Below the pieces are notes generated by a model. The model ran no database searches. It saw only the letters and a list, made by a program, of their open reading frames with translations, and was not told the DNA's origin. This document shows positions 3,776 through 45,834 of a stretch of DNA of 64,000 bases, piece by piece; the stretch's first letter is position 1, and every line of letters starts with the position of its first letter. The DNA is from Tenacibaculum agarivorans (GTDB lineage Bacteria; Bacteroidota; Bacteroidia; Flavobacteriales; Flavobacteriaceae), in assembly GCF_001936575.1 (NCBI RefSeq), contig NZ_MSMP01000001.1:186001-250000 (forward strand). The letters run 5' to 3'. The translations under genes were made by a program, and so were the position numbers.

Positions 3776-6503
3776 GTTCTATAAAAGCAATTTCAGGGTT
3801 ATAAATTTCTAACAACAACTCCTTTATTTGGGCTATAAAATCTGTTATTCGTTCTGGTGTTACTAGATGATCTTTTCCTCTATATTTTTCTGAAAAATTC
3901 AATTTCATAAATCCAGATTTCAATCTTTTAAATGAAATGATTCCTGCCTCTAATGGAGTGCTTACAACTTCACTTTCACTGAACATATATGCATATAATA
4001 ATACCTGTATTGCTTTGCTATATTTAAAGTCCATGATATGGTCTGCTCCTCCAATTTTTAAATCCGTTTCATTAACCAATCCTGTCTTATAATCAATGAT
4101 TCTAGTAACTCCATTCAATTGATCTACCCTATCCACTTGTCCATGAATTTTAATAGGAAAGTCTATTCCTTCAACAGTTACAAAAGCTTCGTAGTTTTTT
4201 TCTAGTTCTAAAATTTTTAACTCATTATTTTCATCAGCAAGTAATTCTATTTCTTGATTTAAAAAATTAGTCACAAACCGAACTGCAACTTCAAAAATAA
4301 GTCGATTTTTACCCGTAGAAACATCTCCATTTTTAAAATACTCAGAAAAATATTTATGTGATAATTGGTTTACTTTTCCTTTCATTTCTTCAACATCAGA
4401 TTTCGATAAATAATTGCCCCTCATCGGCTCGTAAAGTTCTCGTAATGTTTCATGCACTACAGTTCCTAACGTATTAAACGCTACTTCTTCTTCTAAATCG
4501 TCAAACTCACGAATTTTCAACACCTTTTGTTGATAGAAAGCTATAGGATTGTATAAATAATTGGTTAACGCTGATGGAGAAATTCCTTTTCCTGCTAATT
4601 CTTTCAATGTTTCTGCAATAGCGTCATTCTTTTTTATCTCCTTTTTTTCCGTAGTGTTTGCTGAAATCTTGGGACTTACTATGGTGTGCTGAATGTTTTC
4701 TTTAAGCAATTCTAATTGTGTAATAAATCTACTTTTTTCTCCTCCTCCAAAAGTATCGCTTTCTGTATTATAAAGTAAAAACACATTTTCTGCTCTTTGT
4801 ATTAACCTGAAAAAATGATAAGAAAAAATAGCATCTTTTTCTCGATATGTAGGGAGTCCGTAAGCTACTTTAGCATCAAAAGGAATGAATGAAATTTGCT
4901 TATTATTTGCTGGAAAAACACCTTCGTTAACTGAAGTTACAATGATATTTTTAAAATCTAACAAACGGGTCTCTAACATTCCCATTAATTGTAACCCTTG
5001 TAACGGTTCTCCTTGAAAAGATAGGTTTTCAGAATTGATTAATTGTTTAAAAAACTGATACAGTGTTTTTATATCTGAAAAATACCCGAACTCTATTTGT
5101 AAATTTTGTAACTGATTAAAGACAGTGTAATACCTGAATAAAAATTCTTTTTCTAGGCCCTCTACATCATTTTTAACAGCTTCAATTAAATTCAAAATTC
5201 TTACTAAAAAATCATCTATAGTCTTAAACTCTGTTACTAAAGATAATAGTAAATCTTTTTTGTTTTCGGAAATTTCTTGTAGAAAAGAGGCTATATAGGA
5301 TTTGTCTACAAATGTTCTATTTTCTTTAAAAATAGTAGTTACAATTTCATCAGAAATTGAATTATTATCCTTTAATAGTAATCGGTATAATAAAGGTGCT
5401 TTAATCAGCTTTATTACTTCTTTGTAATAAAATACTTTTGCCTCTTTTTTTTGTAATTTTTCTTGACTAATAAAAAGTTGAAAAATGGATAAAAACAAAC
5501 TCGTAGAAGGAATATCTTTTAAAGGATACCCCATAGTAATGTTTATTGATGAAACATTTTCTGGTAACGAATTTAATGTGATAGGCAATAACGATTCGTC
5601 CGCTAATACTAAAGCTGTATTGTTATAATTTGGAAATTGAGTTAGTAATTCTCCTGCATATTTTTGTTGCGAAACATTTTTAGCGGCTCCAATAACTCTG
5701 ATGTTTTTGGGTTGAGAAAACCAATTTCCAATGGTTTTTATTTCATTATTTTTATAATAATTCCAACTGGTTTTGTATTTTCTAATAAAATTCCCTGCTT
5801 GATGATTTGAGTATAAAAATGCTTCATCTATGTCCCAATACACCTCCGTATTCCCTTCGGAGAGCATTGTTTTTAAGATATATTCTTCAGCTTTATTCAG
5901 CGCATTAAAACCAATAAAAAAGAATTTTCTGTCTTTTGTGTTTTTTAAAAAATCTTCTAGCCTTTTTGTTGCTTCTCTATATAAACAACCTTGGTATCCA
6001 ATTTTATTATCTAGTAAAAACTTATAAAAAGCCGTATAGTATTCATTCAATCTTTCTGTAAACGCAAAATGATCTTTCATCAATTCTGTTTCTTGAAATG
6101 TCCCCTTAACAGACCATTTTTTTAACCGTTGTACATCTCTTATGTATATAAAGACTTCTTCTGCATTGACCAAGTGCTGATCTATTTCATTAAAATCTTG
6201 TAATACTGTTAATGCCCAAGAAGAAAAAACATCAAAAGTATCAGGATTAGATTCTTGACTTTTGTATGTCTTATAAAAATAAAATAATAGCTGTATACTA
6301 TCTATTTTTCTAATTGAGGATACTTGTTCAGTAAATCCTTCAATAGTTAAAATTTCAGGTAAAAACCCTACAACACCTTCATTTTTTAGTGCTTGTTTTA
6401 CAAATACTCCTGCACGATTAGAAGGTAAAACAAAGGTTACATTATTAAATGTAGTATTTGTTTTTAAAATATCTTGAATGGTTTCCTGAATAAACGTTTG
6501 CAT
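3756..6503 (-). CDS. AddB-like PD-(D/E)XK nuclease/inactive helicase
   Basis: Large (915-residue) DNA repair protein resembling the AddB/RexB subunit of Bacteroidota. The N-terminus has LPSNRAGVFVK, a degenerate helicase-like motif. The C-terminus carries a RecB-type nuclease: LGTVVHETLRELYEP, then GQVDRVDQ and IIDYKTG, the D and DYK pieces of the PD-(D/E)XK active site. I moved the start from a TTG at 6518 to the ATG at 6503 (MQTFIQETIQ); a TACTTTCG sequence at 6508-6515 sits 4 nt upstream. The usual partner AddA is not in this window. Function as half of an AddAB nuclease is inference from family. Confidence 0.8.
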   Translation of the reverse strand: MQTFIQETIQDILKTNTTFNNVTFVLPSNRAGVFVKQALKNEGVVGFLPEILTIEGFTEQVSSIRKIDSIQLLFYFYKTYKSQESNPDTFDVFSSWALTVLQDFNEIDQHLVNAEEVFIYIRDVQRLKKWSVKGTFQETELMKDHFAFTERLNEYYTAFYKFLLDNKIGYQGCLYREATKRLEDFLKNTKDRKFFFIGFNALNKAEEYILKTMLSEGNTEVYWDIDEAFLYSNHQAGNFIRKYKTSWNYYKNNEIKTIGNWFSQPKNIRVIGAAKNVSQQKYAGELLTQFPNYNNTALVLADESLLPITLNSLPENVSSINITMGYPLKDIPSTSLFLSIFQLFISQEKLQKKEAKVFYYKEVIKLIKAPLLYRLLLKDNNSISDEIVTTIFKENRTFVDKSYIASFLQEISENKKDLLLSLVTEFKTIDDFLVRILNLIEAVKNDVEGLEKEFLFRYYTVFNQLQNLQIEFGYFSDIKTLYQFFKQLINSENLSFQGEPLQGLQLMGMLETRLLDFKNIIVTSVNEGVFPANNKQISFIPFDAKVAYGLPTYREKDAIFSYHFFRLIQRAENVFLLYNTESDTFGGGEKSRFITQLELLKENIQHTIVSPKISANTTEKKEIKKNDAIAETLKELAGKGISPSALTNYLYNPIAFYQQKVLKIREFDDLEEEVAFNTLGTVVHETLRELYEPMRGNYLSKSDVEEMKGKVNQLSHKYFSEYFKNGDVSTGKNRLIFEVAVRFVTNFLNQEIELLADENNELKILELEKNYEAFVTVEGIDFPIKIHGQVDRVDQLNGVTRIIDYKTGLVNETDLKIGGADHIMDFKYSKAIQVLLYAYMFSESEVVSTPLEAGIISFKRLKSGFMKLNFSEKYRGKDHLVTPERITDFIAQIKELLLEIYNPEIAFIEPSELPF

Positions 6504-23192: not shown

Positions 23193-24293
23193 CTAATTTC
23201 CTTGATTCTCATCTTCATCATCTTGGTCATTATCATTCTCGCCATTTTGACCATCATTGTCTTGATCATTATCACCGTCCTGACCATCGTTATCGCCATT
23301 ACCTTGATCATTGTTACCATCCTGACCATCATTATCGCCATTATCATCTTGATCATTGTCACCATCCTGACCATCATTATCGCCATTGTCATCTTGATCA
23401 TTATCACCATCCTGACCATCGTTATCGCCATTACCTTGATCATTGTCGCCATCCTGACCATCATTATCGCCATTGTCATCTTGATCATTGTCACCGTCCT
23501 GACCATCATTATCGCCATTGTCATCTTGATCATTGTCACCGTCCTGACCATCATTATCGCCATTATCGTCTTGATCGTTATTTCCAACAGGCTTTGTTAA
23601 CTTTATATCATCAATAGCCGCAGATGCCCCAACAATTCTAACGATAACACTATATTCTCCTGCATCTATAGATGTTGGTATTACTTCTGAAAAATCTACC
23701 CAGCCATCTTGATTTACTTCTGGTGAAAACCTTACTAATACATCTTCAAAATTAGGATCATTACTGAAATCATTGTTAGAATTTGCATATTCGATAATAA
23801 CATTCATGATATAACTGTTATCCCAACCTGTAAAATTTCCGGGCATATAATACTTGAAAGAAAGTGTTGCTTCACCTTGTTCCAAGCTCTCTTCAAGATA
23901 AAAACTTGTTTCTACAACAGCTTCAAAGAAACCTTCACAAGCCCCCATATCTAGACCCATAAAGTTAGTTTCGTTACCTTTGAAATCATAACCTCTCCAT
24001 GGCGTGAAATCTTCGGTTTTACCTCTAAAAAGAGTCCCACAAGTATTATCTACTTGCCCTCTATCATTTACCGGTTCATTTGCAGGAAAATCTCCTGAAG
24101 AATGTGTTACAAAGTCTTCATTTCCTTGTTCAAAGTCAAATGCAAAAATTAATTCTTCTTGATCATTTTGGTCATTACCGCCTTGTTGATCTTGATTTGA
24201 TTGTTCGTCTTCAATAGGAGTGAATTCAGCATCAGCACAACTCATGAAGAAAGCCAAACTTAAACCAAATACTAATGTTTGAATGTGTTTCAT
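23193..24293 (-). CDS. Acidic tandem-repeat surface lipoprotein
   Basis: 366-residue lipoprotein: signal peptide with lipobox FFMSC (Cys19), an acidic Asn/Gln linker, a central beta domain (about 48-235; ends SAAIDDIKLTKP, like carbohydrate-binding or jelly-roll modules), and a C-terminal tail built of 14- or 15-residue D/N/G/Q units of the type DNDQDDNGDNDGQDG, seven full copies plus a decayed one. Alternating DxDxDG-like spacing suggests calcium binding, by analogy with thrombospondin type 3 and dockerin loops. Lies 151 bp upstream of the ECF sigma operon on the same strand. Function unknown; surface display and Ca binding are inference. Confidence 0.8.
   Translation of the reverse strand: MKHIQTLVFGLSLAFFMSCADAEFTPIEDEQSNQDQQGGNDQNDQEELIFAFDFEQGNEDFVTHSSGDFPANEPVNDRGQVDNTCGTLFRGKTEDFTPWRGYDFKGNETNFMGLDMGACEGFFEAVVETSFYLEESLEQGEATLSFKYYMPGNFTGWDNSYIMNVIIEYANSNNDFSNDPNFEDVLVRFSPEVNQDGWVDFSEVIPTSIDAGEYSVIVRIVGASAAIDDIKLTKPVGNNDQDDNGDNDGQDGDNDQDDNGDNDGQDGDNDQDDNGDNDGQDGDNDQGNGDNDGQDGDNDQDDNGDNDGQDGDNDQDDNGDNDGQDGNNDQGNGDNDGQDGDNDQDNDGQNGENDNDQDDEDENQGN
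23220..23586 (-). repeat. 45/42-bp tandem repeat array inside the lipoprotein gene
   Basis: Seven near-identical units of lengths 45, 45, 45, 42, 45, 45, 42 bp in coding order. The 42-bp units lack one codon and share a GTTATCGCCATTACC variant on the plus strand, so units 2-4 and 5-7 form a duplicated 132-bp higher-order block. All unit lengths are multiples of three, so gain or loss of units keeps the frame. Confidence 0.95.
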
Positions 24294-25772: not shown

Positions 25773-25862
25773 TATAATACATTTTTGGAATACAATTTCG
25801 CATAAATATTTTGTCGAGAATCTATCATTGACATTTTTTTTTAATACTGAAAAAACAATCAT

Positions 25863-26197
25863 TTACACAAATAACCTATACTTCCTCTCCTTTGCCTTGA
25901 TGCAACCTTTCGACTGCGCTCAAGACAGGATTCACAAAAATCAAGACTGAAATGATAAGAATTTAAAAATACTACGGTATCACCAACCACAGATGAAAAG
26001 AACTCGCTATCGCTCAAACAGCTTTTCATCCTTCAGCCAACCCTACTACCTTGATTTTTACAAATTCTTATCAATAGGTCGTTTTTTTAGTAATATGTCA
26101 CTACAGCCGTTTCTCAAATTTTTTGTCGAGGATCTTGAATTAATGTATACATAAAAATTAATCGTAAATCGTATAATTCTATTTACACAAAAGAAAA
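25863..26197. other. Gene-free stretch holding structured repeat copy 1
   Basis: No credible ORF. Positions 25885-26130 hold copy 1 of the dispersed structured repeat. A GACTGCGCTCAAGACAGG segment at 25912-25929 lies inside it and is absent from copy 2. The remainder is AT-rich with no recognised signal. Confidence 0.7.
25885..26130. repeat. Dispersed structured repeat, copy 1
   Basis: About 200-240 bp, nearly identical to 37042-37267. Three complementary arm pairs: A 25936-25945 with A' 26050-26059 (10 bp), B 25954-25964 with B' 26062-26072 (11 bp), C 25992-26000 with C' 26022-26030 (9 bp), in order A-B-C-C'-A'-B'. A and B cross, so they form a pseudoknot or exclude each other. C closes a loop with the conserved AACTCGCTnnCGCTCAAACA. 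No ORF, transposase or target-site duplication is evident. Confidence 0.85.
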
Positions 26198-36923: not shown

Positions 36924-37041
36924 TGCTATATAAACTATAATAGTTAAATAAATTACTCTTGACTGAACTATCATTGATGCCTTTTCTTTAAACACTGAAA
37001 AACTAACACTTACACTAACATTCAAAACAACCTCTATTTCA

Positions 37042-37267
37042 CTCTCCTTTGCCTTGATGCAAAGGAGCAAAAATCAAGACTCAAATGATAAGAATTTAAA
37101 AATACTACGGTATCTCCAGCCACAGATGAAAAGAACTCGCTAACGCTCAAACAGCTTTTCATCTTTCAGTCAACCCTGCTCCCTTGATTTTTACAAATTC
37201 TTATCAATAGGTCGTTTTTTTTAGTAACATGTCATTACAACCTTTCTCAATTTTTTATTGAAGGTCT
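37042..37267. repeat. Dispersed structured repeat, copy 2
   Basis: Same element and orientation as 25885-26130. Arms: A 37069-37078 with A' 37183-37192; B 37087-37097 with B' 37195-37205; C 37125-37133 with C' 37155-37163. All three arm pairs are identical to copy 1 while linkers differ by scattered substitutions, and the 5' insert of copy 1 is missing here. Confidence 0.85.
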
Positions 37268-39886: not shown

Positions 39887-41005
39887 CTAACAAATTGATT
39901 TTCTGTATTGTGTAGGAGTTTTACCCGTGTGTTTTTTAAATGCAGTATTAAATGATGATTTTGAGTTAAAACCAACTTCATATAAGATTTCCAAAACTGT
40001 TACTTTACTTTTTGTAGCATCTGAAAGTATGTTTTTCGCTTTTTCGATTCGGTATTCATTTATAAAATCAAAGAAATGTTGATTCAATTTTTGATTGATT
40101 AACACAGACAATTCTCTCATGGGCATTTTCATATGTTCAGCAAGTTTTCGAATCGTTAAATCTGGATTTAAATAAGGTTCTTCTTTTTCCATATAACTTT
40201 TCAAATCTTGAATTTTACTATCATCTTCTTCAACTTCCTTTTGTATTTCTTTAGATGTAGAAAGGTGTACATCAACACCTCTAAATAGTTTAGGAGAGTT
40301 TAATGCTTTTAAGAATAACCAAAAAATAAAAAACACACCAAAGAGTAATACTACAATTCTCAAAGTTTGAGTTATTTCATCATTTCCAATTGTATCTCTC
40401 GCATAACCTTTTATCAATGTTAATATATGTCCAATTGTTATTAAAATCAGTAATTGCTTCAACCATTTATAGTTTTTTAAAACATCTGAATTTGTATAAT
40501 TCTCTAAAATCAATTTTCGATATCGTAACACATAATACAAAGTTGCCAAGAAGTAGCCTAAAGAAACAAAATAACCAATAAGATCTAAAAATTTAACTTC
40601 CCATTTTGTATCATAATTTGCAAAAAAAGACTCTTTAACAGCATTATCTGCAAGGAAAAAATTAGGAAAGAGGATTATAATGCTTACTACCCAAAACAAA
40701 CCATGTAGTACATGAATTTTTCGAAGTTTAAAATTGGAGTATATTACTGAAAGTACATATAAAAACAACAGTGGATCTTTAAAAGCTGATAGTTTAATAC
40801 GTAACATTTCTAGAGTCAGATTTGGTGTTACAAGTACTGAATAAAAAAAGACACTGATATCTAAGGCTGTAACAGTTAAGAAACAAGCTAATAAAATGTT
40901 ACTTAATTTTTTATTTGTTTTTACAGTTAATAAAAAGCCCGCAAAAAATAAGAATAATAAGAAAATGATGAATCCTAATACTGCTATTATCGAAACTTTA
41001 TCCAT
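39887..41005 (-). CDS. 7TM-AraC-family regulator, second of tandem pair
   Basis: 372 residues: six to seven transmembrane helices (about 5-235) and a C-terminal AraC-type double helix-turn-helix (about 265-370; EYRIEKAKNILSD, EILYEVGFNSKSSFNTAFKK, TPTQYRKS). A membrane-embedded regulator of this kind senses an unknown signal and binds DNA while anchored. It starts 3 bp after its paralogue and lies 133 bp upstream of the TonB receptor. Confidence 0.9.
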   Translation of the reverse strand: MDKVSIIAVLGFIIFLLFLFFAGFLLTVKTNKKLSNILLACFLTVTALDISVFFYSVLVTPNLTLEMLRIKLSAFKDPLLFLYVLSVIYSNFKLRKIHVLHGLFWVVSIIILFPNFFLADNAVKESFFANYDTKWEVKFLDLIGYFVSLGYFLATLYYVLRYRKLILENYTNSDVLKNYKWLKQLLILITIGHILTLIKGYARDTIGNDEITQTLRIVVLLFGVFFIFWLFLKALNSPKLFRGVDVHLSTSKEIQKEVEEDDSKIQDLKSYMEKEEPYLNPDLTIRKLAEHMKMPMRELSVLINQKLNQHFFDFINEYRIEKAKNILSDATKSKVTVLEILYEVGFNSKSSFNTAFKKHTGKTPTQYRKSIC

Positions 41006-41008
41006 ATC

Positions 41009-42139
41009 TTAAGAATTAAGCGCCTGTTTTCTAAACTGTGTAGGAGTTAAATTGGTATACTTTTTAAACGCTGTATTGAATGATGACTTTGAATTGAAAC
41101 CTACCTCGTATAAAATTTCGAGTACTGTTAGTTTAGGTTGATGTTTATCTGTTAATAAATTCATTGCTCTTTTTATTCGATATTCATTTACAAAATCAAA
41201 AAAATGCTGATTCAGATCATGATTAATTGCTATTGAAAGTTCTCTTGGAGCAATCTTCATTTGATGCGCTAAATTTCGGATCGATAGTGAAGGATTTAAA
41301 AATGGCTTTTCTTCCTCCATAAATATTCTTAAGCGACCTATTATATTTTGATGCTCCTCATTTTTACCTATTTCTTCCAATAAATCTTTAGTGAGCTTTG
41401 TTTTAGAATCTACTCCTTTAAATAAATCAGGATTATTCAATGCTTTTAAGATATACCAACACGTAACTAATAAAATAGCAAATATTAAGACTACTTGTGA
41501 ATTAGAGAAAATAGTAGTTTCTACGTGTGAGTATTTAAGTATGTTTTTAATGATTGCTATGGTAAAAATTATAATCCAAAAAATTACAATTTGATATAAC
41601 CACTTGTATGCTTGAATTGTGTTATTAGAATGGTTCTCAAAAAATATATTTTTTGCACGTTTCAATACAACTATACTCATGATATAATAATATATTGATT
41701 GAATATGCATAGATATATGCATAAATATGACTTCCCAAGTATGTATTACATCCAAAGAAATGGTGGCTATTTGCTCGCTTTTCCCCATATAAAATCTCGG
41801 AATCATTACTATATTTCCAATAACAAAAGGAAGTAAGTGCCACAAATGTTTCTTTTTAAACCTAAAATCGGAATAGCAAACTGAGCAAACGTAAAAATAA
41901 AATACTGGAGTAATTAAATAGTAAATAGTGTTTTTAAACATTAAAACACCCAATGAAGTCATAAAAAAATCGTGTATAAAAAAACCACTTATTTCAATAG
42001 AACTTAGAATCAAAAAGATACCAAACAAGCGATTACTCAATTTATTTTCAGCCTTTACTGAGAAAATAAATATGGCAAAAAGCAATGTTATAAAAGTAGC
42101 AAGGATTCCTATAAATACCCTTAAATCTAAATCATTCAT
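41009..42139 (-). CDS. 7TM-AraC-family regulator, first of tandem pair
   Basis: 376 residues with the same plan as the next gene: N-terminal transmembrane bundle and C-terminal AraC helix-turn-helix. The last ~60 residues are almost identical to the paralogue (EVGFNSKSSFNTAFKK), whereas the membrane parts differ, indicating duplication followed by divergence in the sensing half. A promoter element lies inside the 3' end of the alpha/beta hydrolase gene upstream. Confidence 0.9.
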   Translation of the reverse strand: MNDLDLRVFIGILATFITLLFAIFIFSVKAENKLSNRLFGIFLILSSIEISGFFIHDFFMTSLGVLMFKNTIYYLITPVFYFYVCSVCYSDFRFKKKHLWHLLPFVIGNIVMIPRFYMGKSEQIATISLDVIHTWEVIFMHISMHIQSIYYYIMSIVVLKRAKNIFFENHSNNTIQAYKWLYQIVIFWIIIFTIAIIKNILKYSHVETTIFSNSQVVLIFAILLVTCWYILKALNNPDLFKGVDSKTKLTKDLLEEIGKNEEHQNIIGRLRIFMEEEKPFLNPSLSIRNLAHQMKIAPRELSIAINHDLNQHFFDFVNEYRIKRAMNLLTDKHQPKLTVLEILYEVGFNSKSSFNTAFKKYTNLTPTQFRKQALNS

Positions 42140-45524: not shown

Positions 45525-45834
45525 TATACGTTGAATTGTTGGATTATTATTTGTCTAACACGAATCTTAGATAAAAAAATTTGTCAGTTCGAATAATTTT
45601 ACAAAATGAAAATAAAATTGTATCGAGAACAAGGCTATTACTTCTCGATATAAAATTATTTTTCATTGCATTACAAATAATTTCACTCGAAGTGACACTA
45701 TTATTCTTAAATGAGATTCACGTGATCTACTAATTATGGTAACAAAAATACACTTTTATTATAATGGTTTAGTTAAAGTGAGTGTTATGTTATCTTCAGT
45801 TTATGTTCAAAAATTGAACCAAAGTTTATATTTC
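45525..45834. other. Gene-free stretch with small palindromes
   Basis: Contains TATCGAGAA / TTCTCGATA (45621-45629 and 45642-45650) and TCACTCGAAGTGA (45683-45695), short inverted repeats resembling flavobacterial REP-like units. No ORF is supported. Confidence 0.5.

Follow-up and report, generated by a model that had tools for sequence, protein, structure and literature searches.

Elements at the locus

A structured repeat lies behind the gene for 4-hydroxyphenylpyruvate dioxygenase, with a tryptophan-dioxygenase-like gene further on, in the window (the whole 64,000-nucleotide stretch of Tenacibaculum agarivorans DNA that was analysed), and a second copy is found 11,133 bp away. In line with the earlier note, which had described a near-identical second copy in the same orientation and three arm pairs in the order A-B-C-C'-A'-B', the two copies share 154 nt at 95% identity, and both the positions and the order of the arms were borne out on reading the two copies. 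The extent given for the element was too short: the repeated unit, as defined in its own genome, runs from approximately 25822 to 26133 in copy 1 and from approximately 36968 to 37265 in copy 2. The parts of both copies are listed in Table 1; the strand of the copy 1 core was assigned from the wobble asymmetry and the gene orientation described below. Two other repeated features were observed in the window. At 23211-23606, 42/45-nt tandem repeats within a 366-aa ORF give rise to a repeat tail rich in D, N, G and Q, and the opposite strand and a further frame also hold long open frames over this part. At 39887-42139, two similar genes stand side by side (372 and 376 aa, AraC-like C-termini by eye), with DNA identities of 77% and 73% over two shared stretches, a tandem duplication.

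Table 1. Coordinates of the repeated units and of the predicted RNA parts in the window.
Feature	Position	Strand	Remarks
Whole repeated unit, copy 1	25822..26133	-	Alignment of 38 own-genome copies; plus-strand ends CTATCATTGACAT.. and ..TTTTTTGTCGAGGAT
Predicted structured RNA core, copy 1	25885..26080	-	Minus-strand RNA 5' GACCUAUUG.. to 3' ..GCAAAGGAGAG; ~24-nt hairpin inserted in end stem
Helix B, 3' strand in RNA	25953..25964	-	Pairs with 26062-26073; double changes at 9/12 pairs
Helix B, 5' strand in RNA	26062..26073	-	Covariation
Helix C hairpin	25992..26030	-	Arms 25992-26000 / 26022-26030; double changes at 5/9 pairs
Arm A of the earlier note	25936..25945	-	Its ATCAAG (25940-25945) corresponds to hexamer S1a of the 3' pseudoknot (CUUGAU in RNA)
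Arm A' of the earlier note	26050..26059	-	Pairing with A unsupported; double changes at 0/10 pairs
Whole repeated unit, copy 2	36968..37265	-	Own-genome alignment
Predicted structured RNA core, copy 2	37042..37213	-	Without inserted hairpin
End hairpin S2, copy 2	37044..37067	-	37044-37052 with 37059-37067; double changes at 6/9 stem pairs
S2 6-nt loop, copy 2	37053-37058	-	Second half of the pseudoknot
Pseudoknot loop L1, copy 2 (UUUUG in RNA)	37068..37072	-	Candidate third strand; L1/S2b parallel match across elements
Hexamer S1a, copy 2 (CUUGAU in RNA)	37073..37078	-	Pairs with S2 loop; double change at 1/6 pairs, 100% of cells paired (27-core alignment)
Helix B arms, copy 2	37086..37206	-	37086-37097 with 37195-37206, enclosing helix C (37125-37133 with 37155-37163)

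Copies in the genome and their insertion sites

The genome that holds the window (5.63 Mb, 101 contigs) contains at least 39 matches to the element, a lower bound, since the search scored 40 of 89 first-look candidates. Together with the covariance-model matches in 59 of the 199 genomes of the family (see below), this number argues against a chance repeat. Eight of the copies (L030-L037) belong to a second unit type (type 2), which has the outer ~75 nt on each side in common with type 1 and a different structured core. The ~24-nt hairpin inserted in the end stem occurs in 8 of the 30 aligned loci other than type 2, several of them fragments, and in five of the eight type-2 copies. A second small hairpin repeat (CCTTTCGACTGCGCTCAAGACAGG-like) sits in the same end stem of type-1 and type-2 copies, and another insert is present in G025 (L056, L065). 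One copy, L012 (G000:C6:135475), differs in that only the loop of its end hairpin is inverted (CTTTG-CATCAAGA-CAAAG), a hairpin-loop inversion that breaks the pseudoknot pairing.

Many of the genome's copies interrupt a REP-like sequence, AAAATCA/CTCGAACTGACA, which is also found uninterrupted (seven near-matches in the genome's own element loci and one in the window), and at L001, L004 and L013 the apparent right end of one unit abuts the left end of the next, which together argue for insertion and for tandem joining. The unit ends, as defined against the uninterrupted REP-like sites, were compared with those of a MITE, which has terminal inverted repeats and a target-site duplication; by eye they show no inverted repeat between them and a duplication of at most 2 bp. 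The REP-like repeat itself (CTCGAACTGACA / TTCTCGATA) was observed at 45582 of the window (minus strand) and in other loci of the genome, where several units appear to be inserted in such repeats. The earlier note had named flanks that align colinearly as a sign of a larger segmental duplication; the flanks of the genome's copies differ and do not form one colinear duplication, and segmental duplication was therefore rejected.

Fold and covariation

The fold was assessed on an alignment of 27 type-1 cores from the same and related genomes. The model comprises a 9-bp end hairpin whose loop pairs with a neighbouring hexamer, helix B (12 bp), helix C (9 bp) and an inner hairpin. It pairs 94.5% of the cells of the alignment, and at most 52.3% when slid along it. 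Double changes were found at 23 of 39 pairs (7.6 in shuffles; none of 500 shuffles reached as many), distributed over the end stem (6/9), the hexamer/loop helix (1/6), helix B (9/12), helix C (5/9) and the inner hairpin (2/3), the last being paired in 70% of cells only; as the copies are related by descent, these counts are not independent. The arms thus do mutate with compensation, the converse of what the earlier note had proposed as evidence against a structured element. Its three arm pairs fared differently as helices: B and C covary, whereas A-A' shows no double change at any of its 10 pairs in the 27 sequences. The pseudoknot that had been proposed from the crossing of A and B is consequently not upheld, A-A' being without covariation, and the helix between the end-hairpin loop and the hexamer is the better supported crossing helix.

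The helix C hairpin is interrupted by an internal loop, CUGUUUGA / GAGUU, and its inner hairpin is variable. Other subtypes of the element (from Flavobacterium, Bacteroides, Pedobacter and others) have different outer helices, and most of them keep helix C, the end pseudoknot and this internal loop, whose apparent conservation has to be read with the fact that the named genomes were retrieved by its pattern. The 3' pseudoknot is common to cores that otherwise differ, as between type 1 and type 2. Taken together, comparative data provide good support for the predicted fold.

Strand of the RNA

Mismatches within the helices were counted on the strand on which the earlier note had read the element, using 105 distinct rows. 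A.C exceeded G.U mismatches in the end stem (30 vs 1), helix B (53 vs 24) and the inner hairpin (12 vs 2), and no such asymmetry was present in helix C (8 vs 7); other mismatches numbered 17, 98, 39 and 15 in the end stem, helix B, the inner hairpin and helix C, respectively. In a fair wobble test, for which hairpins were accepted by Watson-Crick pairs alone, G.U outnumbered A.C on the opposite strand by 79 to 8 in the end stems of 187 elements, with 106 mismatches of other kinds, and by 8 to 1 in helix C of 200 elements, with 27 others. Such an asymmetry is predicted by an RNA and not by selection on DNA strands, and with the orientation relative to genes it places the RNA on the strand opposite to the one read before. 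Against this assignment, folding of copy 2 gave a z-score of -4.55 on the strand of the earlier note, better than the -2.61 on the proposed strand, although the fold energy is lower on the proposed strand. The earlier strand is most likely the wrong one for an RNA, and the opposite strand is, from wobble pairs and gene context, a well supported assignment.

A 3' pseudoknot with a candidate triple helix

Towards its 3' end, the RNA has, in this order, the hexamer, the U-rich loop L1, S2a, a 6-nt loop and S2b. The hexamer and the loop vary together in combinations such as CUUGAU/AUCAAG, CUUGAC/GUCAAG, CUUGAA/UUCAAG, CUUGAC/GUUAAG, GGCAG/CUGCC, CGCA/UGCG and UCGC/GCGA, among others. Among 63 distinct combinations, 19 have runs of at least five pairs (permuted mean 8.2, maximum 16 in 2000 permutations) and 32 have runs of at least four (permuted mean 17.4, maximum 28); the remaining 31 have runs of fewer than four pairs, and the CUAGAU/AUCAAUG subtype is left with three pairs only. 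Both crossing helices of an H-type pseudoknot therefore show covariation, the end stem at 6/9 pairs and the hexamer/loop helix at 1/6 pairs and in this wider permutation test.

L1 also matches S2b in parallel, the orientation in which a pyrimidine third strand lies in the major groove. The longest such match, in L156, is 12/12 and includes two C.G steps (UCUUUCUUUUUU / AGAAAGAAAAAA), and further matches are 10/10 in L147, 8/8 in L210 and 7/7 in Variovorax (L280). The mean parallel score was 6.04 in 65 informative elements (permuted maximum 5.52, 2000 permutations) and 5.13 in all 126 distinct elements (permuted maximum 4.65, 500 permutations), with antiparallel, that is Watson-Crick, L1/S2b scores nearly as high (5.70 and 4.98, respectively). 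A C.G step lies within the best run of 28 of the 65 elements, a number like that in permutations (mean 28.4, maximum 34) and below that of the antiparallel control (35). Interrupted tracts, with a C in the U-tract and a G in the A-tract, allow the two orientations to be compared: the counts of U and A on either side of the interruption are equal in 10 of 19 elements in parallel and in 1 of 19 in antiparallel orientation, and for asymmetric tracts the exact matches are 9/17 and 0/17, the parser having misread L107 and L125 and having compared the C with the wrong G in four two-C elements whose L1 and S2b do match in parallel. The lengths of U-run and A-run are correlated (rho 0.59, n 68, p 1e-7, base composition uncontrolled). 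Among nine cores retrieved later (L291-L294), five could be parsed, with the parallel match better in three, worse in one and tied in one, and the four unparsed ones have a parallel L1/S2b match by eye. The window's own copies allow three or four triples, at most 3-4 between L1 and S2b in copy 2 and likewise in copy 1 with its inserted hairpin. These data lend moderate support to the view that the U-rich L1 can lie parallel to S2b, the purine strand of the end hairpin, and that the two tend to change together as in a major-groove triplex of U.A-U and C.G-C triples.

Distribution across genomes

A covariance-model search of relatives, as the earlier note had suggested, found the element in 59 of 199 genomes of the family, and a DNA search found it in 15 of 59 same-genus and same-order genomes, both numbers including its own genome. 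At most 14 candidates per genome were scored in these searches, so that copy numbers are lower bounds. The exact core pattern was present in 14 of 395 Bacteroidota genomes, again including its own, and the reversed control in 4 of 395, with one match each. When named genomes were scanned with the core pattern, at least 115 stretches were found; among the 80 titles listed, 77 were Bacteroidota by name and three were Marinobacterium, Halanaerobium and Ignavibacteriaceae. The Ignavibacteriaceae copy has the U-rich tail; the Marinobacterium and Halanaerobium sequences have the core hairpin, and no U-rich tail was seen in them by eye. The Halanaerobium hairpin (L162, 6727-6990), which shares this core, is located between 5S and what by eye resembles 23S rRNA, and it runs antisense to the operon. 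In plasmid records, the element was also found in Variovorax, Parabacteroides and Ilyobacter, each time with its end hairpin. Outside Bacteroidota, the finds are single ones. Tandem arrays were found as well, with 11 matches mostly 213 nt apart (Flavobacterium sp. 14A) and 5 at about 265 nt, and seven elements were observed within about 25 kb in the region of L291-L292. The type-1 element gave no phage or plasmid match at E 1e-5, and carriage by phages was rejected; the core pattern is rare in viral contigs (8 stretches).

Position relative to genes

The gene on the 5' side of the element is mostly on the same strand as the RNA. This was the case for 25 of 31 copies with two neighbours in its own genome (37 examined; two-sided binomial p 0.0009), for 51 of 74 in relatives (p 0.0015) and for 69 of 100 in named genomes (p 0.0002). 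The set from relatives comprised 75 of 125 matches, after removal of repeat views of one place, copies from its own genome, most array members and the weakest matches, and to the set from named genomes each of the 115 core-pattern loci contributed no more than one copy per strand, 100 having both neighbours. Tandem gene contexts follow the rule in 17 vs 2, 32 vs 12 and 41 vs 22 cases, and a 5'-side gene on the same strand lies nearer (median 136 vs 455 and 96 vs 346). Approximately 20-30% of copies are oriented oppositely, including a Parabacteroides copy that faces its HU gene. As judged from their genomic positions, copies show a preference for sites directly 3' of stop codons, in gene sense, also within operons.

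Examples of copies within gene clusters are found in several genomes. In G154, five copies occupy the gaps of a sulfate/siroheme/metH cluster (best NCBIfam matches, not all above the cut-off: PAPS reductase, sulfite/nitrite reductase, uroporphyrinogen methyltransferase, CysG-N and MetH). In G027, a genome of the same genus, one copy lies between a ThiG-like gene (our reading, without an NCBIfam equivalog) and thiH, with thiE directly before. The empty orthologous sites that the earlier note had asked for were found in part: the near relative G022 has no copy at this site, but the site is not clean, as it holds 90 nt of other repeat-like sequence. Copies are also present in the gaps of a complete or partial cluster of rteC, HTH_17, an unassigned gene and an ATPase-like gene (L102, L104, L072, L050, L051, L053, L109), which is probably a mobile element acting as a vehicle. 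In L292, an ATPase-like gene occurs twice (1-846 and 4287-5636); the visible N-termini are the same, and an element lies near each of the two.

Comparison with known families

The earlier note had recognised no named family, and none was found in Rfam 15 or in the literature searched, sequence strings included; the searched literature held no description of the element, which we call undescribed within the limits of those searches and of Rfam 15. No Rfam 15 family matched the element at its gathering score in the window or in 11 further loci, and a sub-threshold match over the element had an E-value of 0.96. Seven of these loci matched only rRNA, tRNA and Flavo-1. The other four, searched in E-value mode, gave one match above gathering, FopS (RF04319) at 4067-4139 of L161, outside and beside an element on the other strand; matches to GibS and BTnc231 below gathering overlap the end of that element on the other strand. 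HEARO/OMEGA RNAs have a characteristic HEARO fold and a linked nuclease of IscB/TnpB type; no HEARO match to the element was found by Rfam in the window and seven loci, and the neighbouring genes were clustered and read by eye. An HDV-like ribozyme, which has the same arm order, was rejected for its unsuitable spacing and for want of an Rfam match, and a hammerhead-like CUGAUGA seen in a few copies is not conserved.

Several known elements resemble this one in part. REP, BIME, BOX and ERIC repeats are likewise dispersed, intergenic and often located behind genes, and in known cases they affect mRNA; the present element differs in being longer and pseudoknotted, with a core found across phyla and no RAYT link found. 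REP elements are palindromes of 20-40 nt with a GTAG or CGTC tag that are mobilised by RAYT, whereas the core described here has about 170-200 nt and a pseudoknot, and Y1 domains do not separate its carriers. Dependence on a reverse transcriptase was not indicated either, its own genome being without an RVT_1 match, although other carrier genomes do have reverse transcriptases. Flavo-1 (RF01705) is, like the element, an unexplained structured RNA of Flavobacteria and was found in two of the seven scanned loci; it is a model of 76 positions, unlike the element, and its matches lie elsewhere in those loci, in L196 close to the element and not over it. The arrangement of the 3' end recalls the telomerase RNA pseudoknot, which has the same order (S1a, U-rich loop, S2a, S1b, S2b) and a U-rich loop able to occupy the major groove of an A-rich stem; unlike telomerase RNA, the element is a dispersed bacterial repeat with some C.G-C steps and without a telomerase or RT link. 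It also recalls the triple helices of ENE/MALAT1 type and of eukaryotic transposons, in which U-tract 1 is followed by U-tract 2 and then by the A-tract, likewise at the 3' ends of RNAs, and of which some belong to mobile elements; in contrast to these, the element is bacterial and has a pseudoknot as its scaffold where they have an internal loop, and protection is presumed for it. The analogy with telomerase and MALAT1/ENE would concern the working principle and not family membership. Finally, the MRSC-65-2 motif is a candidate mobile or repeat element with dozens of copies in diverse phyla and strong covariation, and its published description is of one long stem that carries UYCCGG repeats (PMC11109978); as far as that description goes, it differs from the multi-helix, pseudoknotted element.

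Spread and candidate mobilisers

Comparison of genomes shows turnover of copies between near relatives, and the core is conserved while the flanking unit ends differ by lineage. Of 14 high-copy genomes, 9 have matches to Y1 transposases, as do 6 of 14 zero-copy ones; none was found in G079 and G158, two single-contig assemblies with 11 and 8 element matches. For reverse transcriptases, the corresponding numbers are 9 of 14 and 5 of 14, and no RVT_1 domain was found in the T. agarivorans genome despite its at least 39 element matches. Neither enzyme separates high-copy from zero-copy genomes, and both were rejected as obligatory mobilisers. Integron-like cassette arrays were also rejected: the arrays look like tandem or hitchhiking copies, and no single integrase family was apparent by eye. 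Tyrosine recombinases near some copies were varied (by eye). No mobiliser emerged from these comparisons for the element, which we infer to be mobile and horizontally spread by an enzyme.

Interpretation

The earlier reading of a dispersed structured element, probably mobile and acting as RNA, is supported, while its A/B pseudoknot, strand and extent are not. We tentatively favour, at somewhat less than even confidence, a mobile RNA cassette of 3'-UTRs and intercistronic regions whose triplex tail would resist 3'-5' decay, function and mobiliser being inferred. The sequences show the fold of an RNA of ~170-200 nt with an outer helix, helix C with its CUGUUUGA/GAGUU loop and a 3' H-type pseudoknot. 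This RNA would be made as part of the host mRNA and would need no promoter of its own. Its triplex-capped end would stop 3'-to-5' exonucleases, as triplexes of ENE/MALAT1 type do, and the stopped decay would stabilise the upstream cistron or the element's own RNA. Presumably, it would be tolerated between cistrons because transcription is not terminated there, and it would spread within lineage-specific units and mobile elements. A stronger version is possible but rather doubtful: a cross-phylum class of mobile bacterial RNAs with a telomerase/ENE-like 3' triplex in which as many as 11-12 U.A-U and C.G-C triples follow one another; such RNAs would colonise sites behind stop codons through transcription with, and protection of, host mRNAs. 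If true, this would be a bacterial counterpart of triplex-capped transposon RNAs.

Sharp-ended, dispersed copies nested in a REP-like repeat, the tandem arrays of Flavobacterium sp. 14A, presence or absence of copies between near relatives and the small number of G.U pairs in helix C would also suit a MITE- or REP-like mobile repeat at the DNA level, in which a transposase recognises a single-stranded DNA fold and RNA is incidental. We regard this as unlikely, given the excess of G.U over A.C on one strand (79 vs 8) that an RNA predicts, the Y1 transposase counts in high-copy and zero-copy genomes and their absence from G079 and G158, and the conserved core within lineage-variable ends. Sense insertion at transcribed positions, a 3' pseudoknot common to different cores and, again, tandem arrays are what one would expect of a selfish RNA released from host mRNA by processing or by some form of self-cleavage, capped by the triplex and reverse transcribed, in the manner of a bacterial SINE or retrozyme; this is improbable in view of the lack of RVT_1 in a genome with at least 39 matches, the reverse transcriptase counts (9/14 vs 5/14) and the lack of evidence for cleavage.

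The remaining explanations concern what the RNA does and from which strand it is made. A family of independently transcribed, trans-acting small RNAs, present in many copies by chance, would account for a complex fold and loop motif conserved across phyla, but is very improbable for an element that in some gene clusters comes to within a few nt of stop or start codons. With its hairpins and U-rich stretches behind genes, the element resembles a transcription attenuator or terminator; the U-tract, however, lies before the end hairpin, on the wrong side, for which reason a terminator was rejected, and some copies lie inside clusters whose downstream genes need transcription, which together leave such a role highly improbable. 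The strand of the earlier note, on which the RNA would be antisense to gene 3' ends and form the A-A'/B-B' pseudoknot, has in its favour that A and A' are perfectly complementary in most type-1 copies and that copy 2 has the better fold z-score there; A-A' never changes on both sides, and the wobble asymmetry points the other way, so we give this reading hardly any credence.

The element adds to the structured RNAs of bacteria a widespread one that has no Rfam 15 match and tens of copies in its own genome, and its tail predicts that bacteria form a long RNA triplex of the pyrimidine motif. Should this tail indeed block 3'-5' decay, the element would illustrate a way for mobile repeats to become established within operons and to adjust the expression of individual cistrons. 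If confirmed, it would be new among the RNA elements of bacteria and abundant, with a possible role in protecting messenger RNAs.
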